34,518 nt of DNA from Spirochaetota bacterium (GCA_026418195.1 JAOABU010000091.1:1-34518), one strand, 5' to 3'; positions 20,953-29,198 are shown, counted from the stretch's first letter. Numbers and translations are program-made. The notes: generated by a model from the sequence alone, not told the origin.

Positions 20953-21429
20953 ATGAAAGCGGAATACATCAATCCATTTCTCGAAGCTACTCTCCAACTC
21001 TTTCGGCAAACGTTTGGGATCGAACCTATTCCGGGAAAAGCCTTTTTGATGGAGAGATCCAACACCCATCGGTGGGATGTTTCCGGGGTGATGGTCCTTA
21101 CGGGTCCCGTGATCGGTGTGGTGGTAATCCGCTTGACTCGGTACCTTACGGAAAAGCTTTTAGAAAAAACAGGGATCGTTTGCAAAGACGAAGAGGAACG
21201 GGAAGAGGTGATCAATGGGATGATCGGGGAATTAGTGAATGTAATTGCAGGTAATGCCTCCGGTAAGCTTACCGATTACAATATAAAGGTATCTGTTCCC
21301 TTTGTGGTGCAGGGGGAGAACCATTCCGTCATGTGGCCCGAGCGAGCCCCGATCGTTGGAATTCCCTTCAGCACCAACTATGGACCATTCCTCGTAAACG
21401 TCAGTTTTATCGAGCCGAAGAAGAAGTAA
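20953..21429 (+). CDS. cheX: Chemotaxis CheY-P phosphatase CheX
   Basis: Removes phosphate from CheY-P to reset the flagellar motor signal, acting in the cytosol as a dimer. The 158-residue length and central helix match CheX. The catalytic pair of the ExxN motif is present as Glu93 and Asn96 in GELVNVIAGN. The C-terminal FSTNYGPFLVNVSF strand pair also fits. In spirochaetes cheX usually sits with cheA, cheW and cheY; here it stands alone between a transport ATPase and acetyl-CoA carboxylase, so it could be a second copy. The TAAGG two bases before ATG is too close for a normal Shine-Dalgarno. Its last 23 bases overlap the 3' end of the opposing carboxylase gene. Confidence 0.9.
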   Translation: MKAEYINPFLEATLQLFRQTFGIEPIPGKAFLMERSNTHRWDVSGVMVLTGPVIGVVVIRLTRYLTEKLLEKTGIVCKDEEEREEVINGMIGELVNVIAGNASGKLTDYNIKVSVPFVVQGENHSVMWPERAPIVGIPFSTNYGPFLVNVSFIEPKKK

Positions 21430-24400
21430 GTTCCCGCTCGATACGTTCCACTACATAGGGCCTCAATCGTGAAACTGGAATAATGGCATCGATGGACCCA
21501 ACTTTGAGAGCCCGTTCAACCGAGTGAATCCGATCGAAACGTGCGGCAAGGGCGCTCTGTTTCTCACTATGTACCCTTCTAAAGATTTCATCGAAGTCTT
21601 TCTGGTTGAAACTCTTGTCTGTCCGGAGCCGTTCCTGAGCCTTTTGTACTTCCGGATCCGCATAGGTCTCCTTTAACACCTGGGAAGGGAACACGACTGC
21701 TGCCGCAGGAGCACCCCCAATCACCGAAGCGTAGGCTCCTTCCAAGGCTACCACATGGAGGTTTGGATTTAAGTACTTGGAGAATACTACGTACGCCCCT
21801 CCATGGTACCGGGCAATGACTACAAAAATGAAGGGTCCCTTAAAATTCACCACCGCCCTTCCGATCTCCGCTCCATATTCCAGTTGCAATTTCCTAAGCG
21901 ACTCTGGAGATCCATCGAATCCGCTCAGGTTCGCAAGGAACACTACTGGAAGCCTTCCACTCCAACTATTGATAGCTCGAGCGGTTTTCTTGGAACTCAG
22001 AGGGAAAAGAGTACCTCCACTCCAACTCTCCGGCCCGTCGTAGGGAATTTCTCCTTTTCTAGGGAGAGGCTTACTTTCGATCCCAATGAGTCCTACCGCA
22101 AACCCTCCTATCCTAGCTTCCCAGACAACGGATGTTTCTGCATCTCGCATCCCTGCCCACCGTTCTAGCGGTTTCGTGTCCTGATCGATTAACGCTGCCA
22201 TGACTTGCCGGATATCGAAAGGTTTCTTCCGCTCGGGATTCAACTGCGCACTGAAAATATCCCCTATGGTAGAAAAACCTTGCCCATTGGTGTCTCTATA
22301 GGGGAAGGCTCCTACATCCCGGTCTAGAGGATCCTTTGTGGGAACCCGTACAGGATGGGTTTCTCCTGGACCCATATAGGTGAGAGAGTAATGGTGGAAG
22401 AGGACTTCGTAAGCTTCCTGAAGATCTTTCACCCTGATCTGGGCCTGCCCATTGGGTTCCATGATCTTTTCAGCGCCTCCAATTCCTAGATTGTCCTCGG
22501 CACTGACACTTCCAGAAAAATCCAAAGCTTTCTTTCCAGTGAGAAGCATCGATGCGGTTTCTGTCATGATTAGAAGACCCTTCGTATGCATCAACATGGT
22601 AGCTTCGGCGTTCCAATACGATTGGGCCCCCACATTCGTACCTGCTACGATGATATGGATCACTCCTCCTCGTTGTGTGAATTCAATAATTCGTTTCAAC
22701 GTAGCTGCTGTCCAATCCAAGTTCTCTGTTCCGGAATCCATGTCGATCCGAGCTCCTGCCGAGATTGGCAAAAACTCCACAGGCAGCCCCAGATCCTCTG
22801 CTAAATCGATGGCTGCATTAACCCTTCTACATTCTCCTTCCGCTAACGAACCAAGGTCCGTAGTAGGATCCGAAAGGATAATCACCCTTTTTATCCTACG
22901 CCCATCGGATAATGGATTTTCAATGATACCAAACACGATATTGGCAGTATTCATTCCATAGGGACGTCCCTTTACGCTCCGATAAGCTGGTTTGGGTGAG
23001 GATGCTCCCTCAAATAAAGCAAGATCATACTCTTCGAAGGAGGAATCGTTCGATCGGGAAGTCAACATGCGAATGATCTCATATGGATATACGGTTCCTC
23101 GCTGCCGAGCACGCACCACCTTGGCAACGTACTCATCCATCGGCACCATCGGTTTCCTCGAAGGTTCTCGCACTCGAATAGTGAAGTTCGTCCCCACGAT
23201 ATTGTCGAATAGGAGTTCCTTTTCCTGGACCTGTCGATCCTCGTTTATGAACCTACAGTAAAGAGTGAGTCGTTCCATCCCTAAGCCCAATGTTCGGGCA
23301 GCCATACGTTCTGCGTATTCCTGAATTAAGTGCACAGAAATATCCAATACAGGTCGGATATGAATCACAATCCGGTTCCAGAATAACCGATGTTTCCGTT
23401 TGATCTGCTCGTTCCTGAACGCATAGATCGCCTCCATAAATACATGTTCGAAGGCGACCATTCTTCCTATTCTTCCATCCGAAGTGAACTCGGGCCGGGT
23501 AGTCGAAACTTCCACAAAGGCAAAAATCCGTTCGTCCCTGGGATTTTCTTTGGCCACTCCCCGGACCAGATGGTACTCCTCCCCTCCCGTAAGGTACTCC
23601 AGCTGAAAATTGGTAAGCCGATAGAGGCGTAACTCCCGGTACTGCAAGGGACCAAACTGCAAGCGACCTCCATCCTCAACGAATCGCTTCCCTGTCCCAT
23701 CATCCCCCACCAATGTCCAGGTTCTATACGTAACCTTTCCACCTTTTTCGGATATCCCTAATGAAACCCAATCACAGAGCCAAGGCTGCTGGGAAGTCAT
23801 TGTTGCCCGCTGTAAACTCTTAGAAAAGGTATCGAACACCTCAGCAGGATCGTCATTCTCTGTGTAGGCTACCCATTCCATTGTGGTAGGGTTTCCTGTT
23901 CGGGAGGGATTCATGCTCAGTTCCCCAAGAGCGTTCAACACCGAGGTTGGATCAGATGGATCTAGGTAGGTTACCAATGTGATGGATTCCTCCTCCCCGT
24001 CAAAACTCCTCACCTCGGCAATCCATTTTCCTTTTCGTTCTACTACCGTGACTGATTCTACCTTGCGATCCCTATTCAACCTCCGAGCCAGGGCTTCCAG
24101 AGCCAAACTCCTCAAAGAAGGAGCCCCCTGCTGAATGATCCGAATGAATTCGGGCACCGCCTGTTCTCCCAAGTCCAAGAGACGATCCATGAGGGATTCC
24201 GATGTTCTTCCAATGGATTCTCCTTTCAATAGTAGGGAGAGAATCCTACCTACTCGAGCACTCTTCTGTTCCCGGATACTCTGCAAAATGAACCGGTCAA
24301 AAAGATGGTACCGGGCATTGATAGCAGCATCCGCAAGGGTCTGTCGGGAGGGCTGTGAGATTAAGGCAATTTCATCCAGAAGGTCGGAGAGGTTCTCTCC

Positions 24401-26953
24401 GCTCCCCTCAAGATCCTGAGGGGTCGCGAGTATACTCAGAAGCAAGTCCTGTTTGGCCGATAGAGCTGCTCTAGATTTGAACAACCGGTATAACACTTTC
24501 CGTGCCCGCTCCGTATCCTCTTCCATATCTATCCCATACAACTTAAGGGCATGTTCGAGGGCGCTCAAAAAGGAGGGCGGAAATCCTTTCTTGCGATCTA
24601 CCGTTCGTTTGAAAAAGTGGGAGAGGAGTTCCAAAGATGAAACCGGCGCGAGTTCCCCTTCGGGATCTACCTGATGAGTAGAAAAGAGGCGCTCAATGGT
24701 GGCAAAAATGTTCAACCCTTCCATCCACAGAGATTTAACCCTCGACGAATAAGAGGGATGGGCTTGCTGAAAGGTCTTAATCTCCCGATACAGTTCTGTT
24801 ACTTGGAGGCTGCCGTCATACCCTAAGAGAACCGCTTTTACCATTCCCTTGAGAGCGTTCCACTGATACTCTACATCTGCTTGCCGAAGTCGTTGAATTG
24901 TAACGCGTTCTCCTTTGGGTTGTTCCTTCGATTCCCCTCCCTGTTCCATCGCCTCCAGCAAAACGAGGACCTGTCCTGCTCCAACCTGTTCACCCGGACG
25001 AACTCTCACTTCCCGAACAATACCATCCGCTGAGGCAGGTACCACAACCTCCATCTTCATCGCTTCGAGGGTCAGGAGTACATCCCCTTTTTCTACCTTG
25101 TCGCCCCCACGTACTGGAATGGAGAGAACCACTCCCGGAGAGGGAGATTTAATAACACCCCCGATGGTGAACTCCAACTCGTAAGGGATACCATTCACCT
25201 CTACCTGCAGCACATCCCCTCGTTCTACAATCTGGATTCCATACCGATTCCCAGCGACCCAAAGTTGGGATTCTTCCGACTTTTTTTGATACCGCACTGT
25301 AAGGTCCTGTTCGTCTTTGATTAGGAAAGTCTCCTCATCCAAGGCTTTCACGAGAAAAGAGTAGCGATTTCCCTTTGCCGACACCTCCACTTCATATCCT
25401 GTGCCAGGCCTCAGATCCCTTGGAGAGCCAAAGGTAAGCATTTGCTGGGTGAAGTTCGTCAACTCTTCCTGTTCTCTTCCTAGGTACCGCTCAATAGCGC
25501 CTACAACCAGGGCGACATCCCAATCTGGAGTTGGAAATATCTCTTTGCCAGCGGAAAGGAGCTCCTCCACGAACCGAGTATGCACACCACCCTTTCGTAT
25601 GTCGGGATTACGGAGTAGTCCTAATAGGAACGCCCTATTCGTAGTGCCTCCCTCTATCCGAATCCGCAGTTCCATCAATGCTCGTTCCAGTCTTGCCAGA
25701 GTTGCGGGTCGATTGGGACCTGAAGCAATCACCTTGGCTACCATGGAATCGAAATCAGGAGGAATCTCACTTCCCTGGTCGATTCCAGAGTCGATTCGAA
25801 TTCCTGGACCCGCTGGAGGTCTGAAGGTAGATACCAATCCTGGAGAGGGACGGAAGTCTCTCTGCGGATCTTCCGCATTCAGCCGAACTTCGATGACGCT
25901 TCCCCTGGGTTCCACCTTCCAATTCGCTATGCTCTCCCCTCGGGCTACCCGGATCTGCCCCTGCACGAGATCTATCCCATAAAGTTGCTCGGTGATAGGA
26001 TGTTCCACTTGGAGGCGGGTATTCACCTCCATAAAGTAGAACTCCTCACGGATCAGATCGTAGAGGAACTCTACAGTCCCTGCACTTTCATACCCCGCAG
26101 CCTTCACCAACCGTAGAGCTGCATCCTCCATCTTCCGAATCGTTTCTTGCGAAAATCCTGGTGGAGGGGTTTCCTCAATGATTTTCTGGTTCTTCCTTTG
26201 GACGGAACAGTCTCTGACCCCGAAGGTCTTCACATTCCCATACCGATCTACCAGAACCTGTACCTCCAAGTGCCTGCCCTTTTGAACAAGCCTTTCTATG
26301 AACACCACCCGGTTTCCCGTGATCCGGAACGTCTCTTCAACCGCAGACTGAAACTGTGACTTCAGATCCTCCGGTTTTAAAACAAACCGGATCCCTCTTC
26401 CCCCTCCCGCATTGGCAGCTTTAACAATTACCGGATACCCAATGCGTTCTGCAACCTCCTCTGCTTCCTTCAGTGTATTGACGGGTCCCCGGCTCCAGGG
26501 GCAAATGGGAACTTCAGCTTTTTCAGCTAATTCCTTTGCAGCGATCTTATCACCTAAAAGGGCCATTGCCCTCGAATCAGGTCCTAAAAACACAAGATTT
26601 GCTTGTTCCACCAGGGCTGCAAATTCGGAGTCCTCCGATACGAAGCCCCACCCCACCCAGACAGCTGTACATCCAGAAAGGGTTAGAGCCTCCAGAAGTA
26701 ACGGGCGATCTAGATAGGGGCTTCCTTTTCCCCTTCTATACGAGGGAAACTCATGAAGGGGGTAAGCAAAATCCGCCTCTCGACTGAAGAGAGCATTCTT
26801 TTCACGATCTATATAGAAGGCAACGGTTTTTAAATCGGTTCCTTCCAAACGATTGAAATCCCGAACAGCTCGGATGAAACGGATCGCCGCTTCTCCACGG
26901 TTCACGATTCCTATACGGGCCGTATCCTGCAAAATAGGTTTGGGTCCTGGCAT
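21407..26953 (-). CDS. Single-chain acetyl-CoA carboxylase of eukaryotic architecture
   Basis: Carboxylates acetyl-CoA to malonyl-CoA, the committed step of fatty acid synthesis. One 1848-residue chain holds all activities. Biotin carboxylase at about 1-470: ATP-grasp loop in ANAGGGRGIRF near 180-190 and MEVNTRLQVEH near 308-318. Biotin carrier domain about 595-668: biotinylated Lys633 in EAMKMEV. A long helical central region about 700-1215 corresponds in position to the ACC central domain of eukaryotes. Carboxyltransferase about 1220-1848: RARQRGTVYPYE, SAGARIDMD, GGVIHIIVAGTNVG, EARIGGFAVGLIGIES, ANLSGFDGS and RYHGGAYVVF, which read like yeast and animal ACC rather than AccA/AccD. The frame is unbroken. 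A promoter lies six bases from the ATG, with a palindrome just upstream. Substrate could in principle be another short acyl-CoA. Confidence 0.93.
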   Translation of the reverse strand: MPGPKPILQDTARIGIVNRGEAAIRFIRAVRDFNRLEGTDLKTVAFYIDREKNALFSREADFAYPLHEFPSYRRGKGSPYLDRPLLLEALTLSGCTAVWVGWGFVSEDSEFAALVEQANLVFLGPDSRAMALLGDKIAAKELAEKAEVPICPWSRGPVNTLKEAEEVAERIGYPVIVKAANAGGGRGIRFVLKPEDLKSQFQSAVEETFRITGNRVVFIERLVQKGRHLEVQVLVDRYGNVKTFGVRDCSVQRKNQKIIEETPPPGFSQETIRKMEDAALRLVKAAGYESAGTVEFLYDLIREEFYFMEVNTRLQVEHPITEQLYGIDLVQGQIRVARGESIANWKVEPRGSVIEVRLNAEDPQRDFRPSPGLVSTFRPPAGPGIRIDSGIDQGSEIPPDFDSMVAKVIASGPNRPATLARLERALMELRIRIEGGTTNRAFLLGLLRNPDIRKGGVHTRFVEELLSAGKEIFPTPDWDVALVVGAIERYLGREQEELTNFTQQMLTFGSPRDLRPGTGYEVEVSAKGNRYSFLVKALDEETFLIKDEQDLTVRYQKKSEESQLWVAGNRYGIQIVERGDVLQVEVNGIPYELEFTIGGVIKSPSPGVVLSIPVRGGDKVEKGDVLLTLEAMKMEVVVPASADGIVREVRVRPGEQVGAGQVLVLLEAMEQGGESKEQPKGERVTIQRLRQADVEYQWNALKGMVKAVLLGYDGSLQVTELYREIKTFQQAHPSYSSRVKSLWMEGLNIFATIERLFSTHQVDPEGELAPVSSLELLSHFFKRTVDRKKGFPPSFLSALEHALKLYGIDMEEDTERARKVLYRLFKSRAALSAKQDLLLSILATPQDLEGSGENLSDLLDEIALISQPSRQTLADAAINARYHLFDRFILQSIREQKSARVGRILSLLLKGESIGRTSESLMDRLLDLGEQAVPEFIRIIQQGAPSLRSLALEALARRLNRDRKVESVTVVERKGKWIAEVRSFDGEEESITLVTYLDPSDPTSVLNALGELSMNPSRTGNPTTMEWVAYTENDDPAEVFDTFSKSLQRATMTSQQPWLCDWVSLGISEKGGKVTYRTWTLVGDDGTGKRFVEDGGRLQFGPLQYRELRLYRLTNFQLEYLTGGEEYHLVRGVAKENPRDERIFAFVEVSTTRPEFTSDGRIGRMVAFEHVFMEAIYAFRNEQIKRKHRLFWNRIVIHIRPVLDISVHLIQEYAERMAARTLGLGMERLTLYCRFINEDRQVQEKELLFDNIVGTNFTIRVREPSRKPMVPMDEYVAKVVRARQRGTVYPYEIIRMLTSRSNDSSFEEYDLALFEGASSPKPAYRSVKGRPYGMNTANIVFGIIENPLSDGRRIKRVIILSDPTTDLGSLAEGECRRVNAAIDLAEDLGLPVEFLPISAGARIDMDSGTENLDWTAATLKRIIEFTQRGGVIHIIVAGTNVGAQSYWNAEATMLMHTKGLLIMTETASMLLTGKKALDFSGSVSAEDNLGIGGAEKIMEPNGQAQIRVKDLQEAYEVLFHHYSLTYMGPGETHPVRVPTKDPLDRDVGAFPYRDTNGQGFSTIGDIFSAQLNPERKKPFDIRQVMAALIDQDTKPLERWAGMRDAETSVVWEARIGGFAVGLIGIESKPLPRKGEIPYDGPESWSGGTLFPLSSKKTARAINSWSGRLPVVFLANLSGFDGSPESLRKLQLEYGAEIGRAVVNFKGPFIFVVIARYHGGAYVVFSKYLNPNLHVVALEGAYASVIGGAPAAAVVFPSQVLKETYADPEVQKAQERLRTDKSFNQKDFDEIFRRVHSEKQSALAARFDRIHSVERALKVGSIDAIIPVSRLRPYVVERIERELTSSSAR

Positions 26954-26959
26954 GGCCCC

Positions 26960-26989
26960 ATCCTACAAAAGAGTTGTTTGCAAGGTCAA
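26960..26989 (-). promoter_or_regulatory. Promoter of the acetyl-CoA carboxylase gene
   Basis: Minus strand TTGACC (26989-26984), 18-base spacer, TAGGAT (26965-26960), six bases (GGGGCC) to ATG 26953. No Shine-Dalgarno at a workable distance. Confidence 0.55.
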
Positions 26990-27596: not shown

Positions 27597-28595
27597 ATGG
27601 ATCCACAAGTAGCTATCTTACGTTCTCAGTTCAATCGCATTACCCGGGAGTTCTTTTCTCAAAAGGGATACCTGGAAGTGGATACACCGATCCTTTCCCC
27701 TGCCCTGATTCCAGAGTCAGCGATAGAGGTATTCGAAACCTTTTTTCTCCATCCCGATCGGAAACCACTTCCTTTGTACCTGATTCCTTCTCCTGAAGTA
27801 TGGATGAAGCGGCTTTTAGCCCAGGGTTGGCCCTCCCTATTTCAAATTACGAAATCCTTCAGGAATGCGGAGTCCATAGGAAGAATCCACAGTCCCGAGT
27901 TCACCCTTTTGGAATACTACACAAGAGGAGCTAACTATATCGCCTCCATCGATATTACCGAACAGTACTTCCAATTCCTATTGGACCAAATACCCCCGGA
28001 TTTCCTGGCTTCCGATCTTCGCGTCCTTCAACCCCCTTTCCAGCGAATGCAGGTTGAGGAAGCCTTTCAACGTTTCGCTGGATTCTCACTGGTTCCATTA
28101 GATCGAGAAGGGTTACTCGAAAAGGCGAAATCCCTAGGACTTACCCTGTCGGAGGAGGCAAGTTGGGAAGAAGCATTCAATCAAGTGTTCGTTCATCTGG
28201 TAGAACCGAATCTCCCACAGGATCGGCCTTTAGTACTTCTTGATTATCCTGCAGAAGTCCCATGCTTGGCAAAACGGATTCCTGGAACTCCTTGGAGGGA
28301 ACGGTGGGAACTGTACATTGGAGGGATGGAACTGGCCAACTGCTTTACCGAGGAAACAGACCCCCATGAAATCGAGGCATACTTCGCTATGGAAGGGGAA
28401 AAGAAACGTTTTTCCCGGGTACCTCATACCCTGGATATCTCCTTTCGGGACATGTATAAAATCCCATCCATGAAAACCATTCCTCTATGTTCCGGTGTAG
28501 CCCTGGGAGTAGATAGATTATTGATGTGCCTTTCGGGGAAATCTTCTATCGAGGGGGTGATTTTATTTCCTATTTCTGATATAGTTCTTTCATAA
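27597..28595 (+). CDS. epmA: EF-P (R)-beta-lysine ligase EpmA
   Basis: Class II lysyl-tRNA-synthetase-like catalytic domain, 332 residues, without the N-terminal anticodon-binding domain. It is therefore not a tRNA ligase but the enzyme that attaches beta-lysine to elongation factor P. Seen: motif 1 region YLEVDTPILSP near residues 23-33, motif 2 FRNAESIGRIHSPEFTLLEY with its two Arg and Glu, and motif 3 GVALGVDRLLM near the C-terminus. The target gene efp follows 39 bases downstream, strongly supporting the assignment. The lysine 2,3-aminomutase EpmB that supplies the substrate is not in the window. Start ATG 27597 sits eight bases after a -10 box. Confidence 0.93.
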   Translation: MDPQVAILRSQFNRITREFFSQKGYLEVDTPILSPALIPESAIEVFETFFLHPDRKPLPLYLIPSPEVWMKRLLAQGWPSLFQITKSFRNAESIGRIHSPEFTLLEYYTRGANYIASIDITEQYFQFLLDQIPPDFLASDLRVLQPPFQRMQVEEAFQRFAGFSLVPLDREGLLEKAKSLGLTLSEEASWEEAFNQVFVHLVEPNLPQDRPLVLLDYPAEVPCLAKRIPGTPWRERWELYIGGMELANCFTEETDPHEIEAYFAMEGEKKRFSRVPHTLDISFRDMYKIPSMKTIPLCSGVALGVDRLLMCLSGKSSIEGVILFPISDIVLS

Positions 28596-28634
28596 CCATA
28601 TCCTAATTTATAGAGAGGGAAACAAGCAGATTGT

Positions 28635-29198
28635 ATGATTAGAGCAGGTGCTATTGAAAAAGGTATGTGTCTCTTGCTGAAGAACGATCCATACCTAGTC
28701 GTAGAGCGAGAATTCGTGAACCCGGGGAAGGGATCAGCCTTTGTGCGGTTGAAACTGAAGAACTTAAAGACCGGTCAAGTATTGCGAGAAACGATCAAGA
28801 CCAACGATTCCGTAGAAGAAGCAGACGTATACGACAAGAACGCTCAGTTCCTCTATTCTGATGCCACAGGTTATTATTTCATGGACAACGAAAGCTATGA
28901 ACAGTTTACCATCCCGAAACAGGGCCTAGAAGACAAACAGTACTACCTTCAGGAAGGACATAGTTACTATGTAACATTTTGGGAAGGAAACCCCATCGAT
29001 ATCAAAATCCCGTATAAGATCGTACTCACTGTGAAAGAAGCTCATGAAGCCTTAAAGGGGGACACGGTTACAGGAGCGACCAAACCGGTTGTTTTAGAAA
29101 CGGGGCTTACCGTCCGGGTGCCTATCTTTATCAAGCAGGGCGAAAAAATCATGATCAATACGGAAACCAACGAGTACGTGGAGCGAGTGAATTCTTAA
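28635..29198 (+). CDS. efp: Elongation factor P
   Basis: Binds the ribosome between P and E sites and rescues stalling at polyproline. The 187-residue, three-domain length is standard: KOW-like domain about 1-63 and two OB domains after it. The modification loop PGKGSAF places the modified residue at Lys32, equivalent to E. coli Lys34. Together with the upstream epmA this predicts beta-lysylation rather than hypusine or rhamnose. C-terminal family signature: ETGLTVRVPIFIKQGEKI. It is 39 bases behind epmA, and no Shine-Dalgarno lies at normal distance (GAGAGG is about 17 bases upstream of ATG), so initiation is unusual. A hairpin terminator follows. Confidence 0.97.
   Translation: MIRAGAIEKGMCLLLKNDPYLVVEREFVNPGKGSAFVRLKLKNLKTGQVLRETIKTNDSVEEADVYDKNAQFLYSDATGYYFMDNESYEQFTIPKQGLEDKQYYLQEGHSYYVTFWEGNPIDIKIPYKIVLTVKEAHEALKGDTVTGATKPVVLETGLTVRVPIFIKQGEKIMINTETNEYVERVNS

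Follow-up and report, generated by a model that had tools for sequence, protein, structure and literature searches.

The contig analysed here, a 34,518-nucleotide stretch from a Spirochaetota bacterium (GCA_026418195.1, JAOABU010000091.1:1-34518; hereafter the window), carries on its minus strand a gene for a single-chain acetyl-CoA carboxylase (ACC) of 1848 residues (21407-26953). Very probably, this gene encodes the housekeeping, eukaryote-type ACC of an old bacterial family that shares a fused ancestor with the ACC of eukaryotes. The frame runs from an ATG at 26953 to a stop codon at 21407-21409 with no internal stops, confirming the unbroken, eukaryote-like chain that an initial annotation, which did not name the strand, had described here from sequence. 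Full-length orthologues of the same length and 50-90% identity were found in sister genomes of the same genus, the same family and several other families of the class, and their presence in independent assemblies excludes a chance frame or an assembly fusion. The closest named relative among the matches listed was an uncultured Spirochaeta metagenome-assembled genome, with a carboxyltransferase (CT) 95% identical to that of the window. The source genome is a 3.13 Mb draft, 98.6% complete, of which the window is one contig.

The domains of the fused ACC follow the eukaryotic order, BC-BT-BCCP(K633)-CDN-CDL-CDC1-CDC2-CT, and homology was observed for every one of them. Pfam recognized a biotin carboxylase (BC) at residues 12-464, a biotinyl domain at 600-665, Carboxyl_trans at 1357-1844 and, weakly, ACC_central at 1107-1220 (E 4e-4 when the entire chain was searched, 1.3e-5 with just this region). 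The BC domain (residues 12-467; 25553-26920, minus strand, as for all features of the gene), delimited by Pfam and NCBIfam, retains nine active-site residues, mapped by E. coli AccC numbering, that are invariant in 38/38 family members. This is followed by the BT domain (residues 468-598; 25160-25552), predicted by AlphaFold as one long helix and then eight beta strands; the model of the BC-to-BCCP stretch (residues 466-674, mean pLDDT 85) has the BT fold, with yeast and human ACC as its best Foldseek matches. The biotin carrier domain (BCCP, residues 600-667; 24953-25156; Pfam Biotin_lipoyl, E 1.6e-16) contains the EAMKM motif in which the initial annotation had placed the biotin-accepting Lys633 (codon 25055-25057), an assignment borne out by the biotinyl domain and by lysine at this position in all 69 family members that could be aligned over their full or nearly full length. 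Both halves of the CT occupy residues 1285-1848 (21410-23101; Carboxyl_trans, E 1.3e-38), as also indicated by profile and tree.

Between carrier and CT lies the anticipated central region, measuring about 610 residues rather than the 500 or so first estimated, and both profile and fold comparisons indicate that it is truly homologous to that of eukaryotic ACC. When a ten-member family profile covering residues 672-1290 was searched against PDB chains, ten matches had E no higher than 1. Eukaryotic ACC accounted for the eight best (E 7e-12 to 0.08), aligned colinearly over several segments; the last two, with E 0.11 and 0.14, were a designed protein and a further fragment of ACC. The AlphaFold model of the region (68 sequences; mean pLDDT 89, pTM 0.86) yielded 31 Foldseek matches at E below 1e-3, all of them to eukaryotic ACC (best E 3e-22), and the yeast AC3-AC5 part fits the model with a target-normalised TM-score of 0.70. 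Thus, the profile search suggested at annotation did recover eukaryotic ACC central domains, and the opposite outcome, a central region unrelated to eukaryotic ACC, did not occur.

In this model, a helical domain is followed by a four-helix bundle and then by two alpha-beta domains whose helices lie between strands 3/4 and 4/5, a succession that matches what has been published for CDN, CDL, CDC1 and CDC2 (PMC4833862). AlphaFold and Foldseek together would place a CDN-like helical domain at approximately residues 687-868 (24350-24895, boundaries drawn from the model against eukaryotic ACC), a CDL-like four-helix bundle at 871-959 (24077-24343), also matched by profile to yeast ACC 950-1112, a CDC1-like alpha-beta domain at 964-1113 (23615-24064) and a CDC2-like alpha-beta domain at 1116-1262 (23168-23608). 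In yeast, the phosphorylated Ser1157 sits in a 36-residue regulatory loop that connects strand 2 of CDC1 to strand 3 (PMC4833862). This loop was not found in the spirochaete CDC1-like domain, where model and alignment give a tight turn in its place, nor among 68 members, in which the stretch from strand 2 to strand 3 spans 30 residues or fewer. The phosphorylated loop is a regulatory trait, and we do not treat it as defining the wider family.

Separate phylogenies of CT and BC, in which the eukaryotic rows were the sequences of PDB chains returned by search, both joined the fused ACC to eukaryotic ACC. Among PDB chains, the CT profile gave E values of 1e-25 to 1e-15 for eukaryotic ACC, whereas the best PCC-type (propionyl-CoA carboxylase) chain reached 6e-9. 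The CT tree set the bacterial family and eukaryotes together apart from PCC-beta, type-2 fusions (see below) and AccD+AccA (support 100/100), with the bacterial family on one side of a branch (98/96) and eukaryotes as its sister. When AccD+AccA were omitted, the split uniting family and eukaryotes was kept in 1000/1000 bootstraps and a grouping of eukaryotes with PCC-beta was rejected (approximately unbiased test, p 0.003); the placement with AccD/AccA or PCC beta that had been named as the contrary result was therefore not seen. For BC, a quick tree joined eukaryotes and the bacterial family with 96 SH-aLRT and the finished tree with 100/96, a label read after rerooting and with a bootstrap not fully settled, whilst the split of the family from eukaryotes was weak (66/93). 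In addition, the BC domain bears three tryptophans shared in the alignment only with eukaryotic ACC, Trp99 and Trp102 in a WxGW signature (26648-26659) and Trp153 in PWS (26495-26497). All 38 family members and all three eukaryotic ACC rows carry these residues, whereas none of the 32 other rows does (19 AccC-picked, 3 PCC-alpha, 2 PYC and 8 type-2). The CT motifs had been read as eukaryote-like, which holds for SAGARIDMD, and also for LANxxGFxG; GGAYVVF lies nearer to the PCC-beta type (GGAY) than to eukaryotic GGSWVV, the second oxyanion-hole motif of bacterial members being GGAY or GGAF versus GGSW in eukaryotes. The bacterial fused family is the closest bacterial kin of eukaryotic ACC found in this analysis, and both trees, along with the true ACC central region, support the earlier suggestion of a relative of the lineage from which eukaryotic ACC came.

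That an AccC-like chain and a PCC-beta-like CT were fused independently in bacteria, giving a protein that is eukaryotic in its domain order alone, is very unlikely. Such a fusion is exemplified by the type-2 chains of other Spirochaetota (L023-L042), and the BC of the window is 41-44% identical to AccC, represented by two spirochaete sequences, compared to 34-36% to the BC of human and fungal ACC; however, the profile and fold homology of the central region, the CT and BC trees and the shared tryptophans all speak against it. Convergent fusion was rejected on the central profile, the Foldseek matches and the BC tryptophans. The type-2 chains themselves resemble the fused ACC in being one chain (approximately 1770-2070 residues, typically about 1900) of the same order, with BC first and CT last, but differ in their PCC-beta-type CT, which forms its own 100/100 CT clade, and in having no ACC_central. 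They represent a second, independent fusion in other Spirochaetota families, made up of BC, BCCP, a long linker and a CT with a long insertion.

Horizontal transfer of the gene from a eukaryote, as the initial annotation had considered, would account for the same domain order and for a central region known elsewhere chiefly from eukaryotes, yet it is extremely unlikely and was not supported. The CT is 58-66% identical to those of bacteria of other phyla versus 25-30% to human and fungal ACC, BC identity to eukaryotes is likewise low, the bacterial family sits on a branch that excludes eukaryotes (98/96), the regulatory loop is missing, and relatives are encoded in 236 stretches of bacterial genomes.

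These 236 stretches came from a single scan covering the genomes of 84,980 species, with phyla given for the best 80: Spirochaetota (n = 43), Myxococcota (n = 11), Bdellovibrionota (n = 9), Pseudomonadota (n = 7), Planctomycetota (n = 6), Fidelibacterota (n = 1) and unassigned (n = 3), some of which may be misbinned genomes. Members with CTs 55-66% identical to that of the window were found within Spirochaetota, Planctomycetota, Bdellovibrionota, Myxococcota, Pseudomonadota and Actinomycetota. Only 7/393 genomes of an even sample of Spirochaetota, source genome included, carry the gene, so its distribution in that phylum is patchy. One member with 66% CT identity (L122) belongs to the planctomycete Candidatus Uabimicrobium amorphum, which engulfs prey. 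Polyketide/fatty-acid-synthase-like KR-DH genes, a type I polyketide synthase or phosphopantetheinyl transferases lie next to the fused ACC gene in Pseudomonadota, Myxococcota and Tsukamurella (L129, L131, L132, L136, L145 and L150), neighbours that are consistent with malonyl-CoA supply. The actinobacterial members (Tsukamurella, Nonomuraea, Embleya and Gordonia; loci including L150-L153) are a twig nested in a clade of Myxococcota and Pseudomonadota in the CT tree; therefore, the actinobacterial origin of the fusion proposed in 2019 (PMC6491548) is not supported. The notion of a bacterial oddity was also too narrow, given the relatives recovered by the scan and the description of this kind of enzyme in Actinobacteria in 2019 (SACE_4237; PMC6491548). 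Its range over bacterial phyla is nonetheless much wider than we found published in a limited literature collection, which held no report of a eukaryote-type fused ACC in spirochaetes.

In the 98.6%-complete genome, searches for a further CT domain, a further biotin carboxylase or AccA yielded nothing. The check for separate subunits suggested at annotation thus showed accA, accC and accD relatives to be absent, with the fused ACC as the only CoA carboxylase found. The fabD, fabG and fabF genes are clustered on another contig beside genes for oxaloacetate decarboxylase alpha and beta, the decarboxylase being the only other biotin carrier identified, and two biotin/lipoate ligase-type genes are present in the genome. 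The fabF-fabG-fabD cluster (L201 5155-12581, contig 84 of G000) also adjoins a phosphoenolpyruvate carboxykinase gene. By hand count, 18 of 60 near relatives carried the fused gene, 19 carried AccD/AccA-type genes and none carried both; the hypergeometric chance of zero overlap is 2e-4 ignoring kinship, a significance that relatedness inflates. The simplest reading is that the fused ACC replaced the heteromeric enzyme in this spirochaete lineage. Separately, AccD-like and AccA-like halves shared one open frame of approximately 590-870 residues in 3/19 (G215, G216 and G235), and 17/60 near relatives (e.g. G206, G207 and G222) had only a CT of the 525-residue class (PCC-beta or decarboxylase type), with neither fused ACC nor AccD/AccA.

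We propose that, with biotin attached to Lys633, the N-terminal BC domain would carboxylate the biotin using ATP and bicarbonate, after which the BCCP arm would swing toward the C-terminal CT, where the carboxyl group would be passed to acetyl-CoA to give malonyl-CoA. Malonyl-CoA, a building block of fatty acids, would then feed the type II fatty-acid synthase whose FabD, FabG and FabF are present, the fused ACC presumably taking the place of the AccA/B/C/D of other spirochaetes. The non-catalytic CDN-CDL-CDC1-CDC2 part may serve as a hinged spacer that places BC, BT and BCCP against a CT dimer, as in eukaryotic ACC, without the phosphorylation loop.

That the enzyme is instead chiefly a carboxylase for propionyl-CoA or another acyl-CoA is unlikely, if less so than the alternatives above. 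SACE_4237 accepts acetyl-CoA and propionyl-CoA equally readily (PMC6491548), and serine replaces the arginine at the position of yeast Arg1954; against this, no CoA carboxylase other than the fused ACC was found in a genome whose FabD/FabG/FabF system needs malonyl-CoA, and the fused ACC never co-occurred with AccD/AccA in the 60 relatives.

Several points weigh against a housekeeping ACC of shared eukaryotic ancestry. The eukaryotic branch of the CT tree is long (5.3 changes per column), with a long-branch risk for its placement, and the CT is only 25-30% identical to that of eukaryotes. Serine stands at the position of yeast Arg1954 (in ANWRGF) in 7/7 bacterial rows compared, two of them actinobacterial, so the CT may differ in its chemistry or in the substrate that it prefers. 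A gene could be missing from the draft genome, and the membership of SACE_4237 in the family rests on its published description and on family-level actinobacterial relatives. Finally, it is by analogy with the enzymes of yeast, human and S. erythraea that we infer activity in the spirochaete members, along with their substrate range, homodimerization and the mechanical contribution of the central region.

The origin of eukaryotic ACC, a major target for drugs and herbicides, is unsettled. It is possible, though we advance it tentatively and at somewhat less than even odds, that a bacterial single-chain ACC family spanning at least six phyla, rather than an actinobacterial invention, gave the ancestor of eukaryotes its cytosolic ACC already fused. 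Should this hold, spirochaete, planctomycete and proteobacterial members would retain the enzyme in the form that it had before eukaryotes, lacking the phosphorylation loop. The sister position of eukaryotes is equally compatible with donation by bacteria and with an older common ancestor. A bacterial family over several phyla that has every domain in common with the eukaryotic enzyme makes the origin of eukaryotic ACC testable by dense sampling, removes the special case for Actinobacteria and provides a smaller model, lacking the phosphorylation loop, for the hinged central region. In a 2011 study, eukaryotic ACC was not placed and no ACC was found in three spirochaetes (PMC3199775); as the fused ACC shows, some spirochaetes probably make malonyl-CoA without AccABCD.

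A sixA-like gene in the same orientation ends 74 nt before the start of the fused ACC gene, and a possible Shine-Dalgarno sequence, AGGA, lies 7 nt 5' of the ATG (26961-26964, minus strand, from reading the sequence). Upstream of the sixA-acc pair and in divergent orientation are an EpmA (GenX)-like lysyl-tRNA synthetase paralogue and, immediately after it, elongation factor P (27597-29198 of the window, named by reading). These neighbours (sixA, cheX-like, epmA and efp) recur only in a sister genome of the same genus; the fused ACC gene therefore stands alone.

Among known systems, PCC-type enzymes are set apart in that the CT of the fused ACC does not group with PCC-beta. The single-chain carboxylases LCC and AccS likewise carry BC, BCCP and CT on one chain, but the fused ACC falls outside this group, its domain order being different (PMC6491548, PMC11602165) and its central region one described as confined to eukaryote-type enzymes (PMC6491548). 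Heteromeric bacterial ACC (AccA, AccB, AccC and AccD) carries out the same reaction, with AccC related to the BC of the fused chain, but consists of separate subunits and was mutually exclusive with the fused gene in the 60 relatives. Eukaryotic cytosolic ACC (yeast ACC1, human ACC1/2; 5csk, 5i6e and 8xkz) shares the domain order, the homologous central region and the BC tryptophans, whereas the full-length PDB chains matched are 2211-2407 residues long compared to 1848, and the spirochaete enzyme lacks the 36-residue CDC1 phospho-loop and has serine for Arg1954 and GGAY for GGSW. The nearest characterized counterpart is SACE_4237 of Saccharopolyspora erythraea, a homodimeric, experimentally proven and essential ACC that is the sole malonyl-CoA source of its host (Livieri et al. 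2019, PMC6491548). Like the fused ACC of the window, it is a single chain (approximately 200 kDa) with a eukaryote-type central region and a group V CT that groups with eukaryotic ACC, and the actinobacterial members analysed here fall in the same clade as the window, with 58-59% CT and 50% BC identity. The two differ in host, SACE_4237 being actinobacterial and the fused ACC of the window coming from Spirochaetota.

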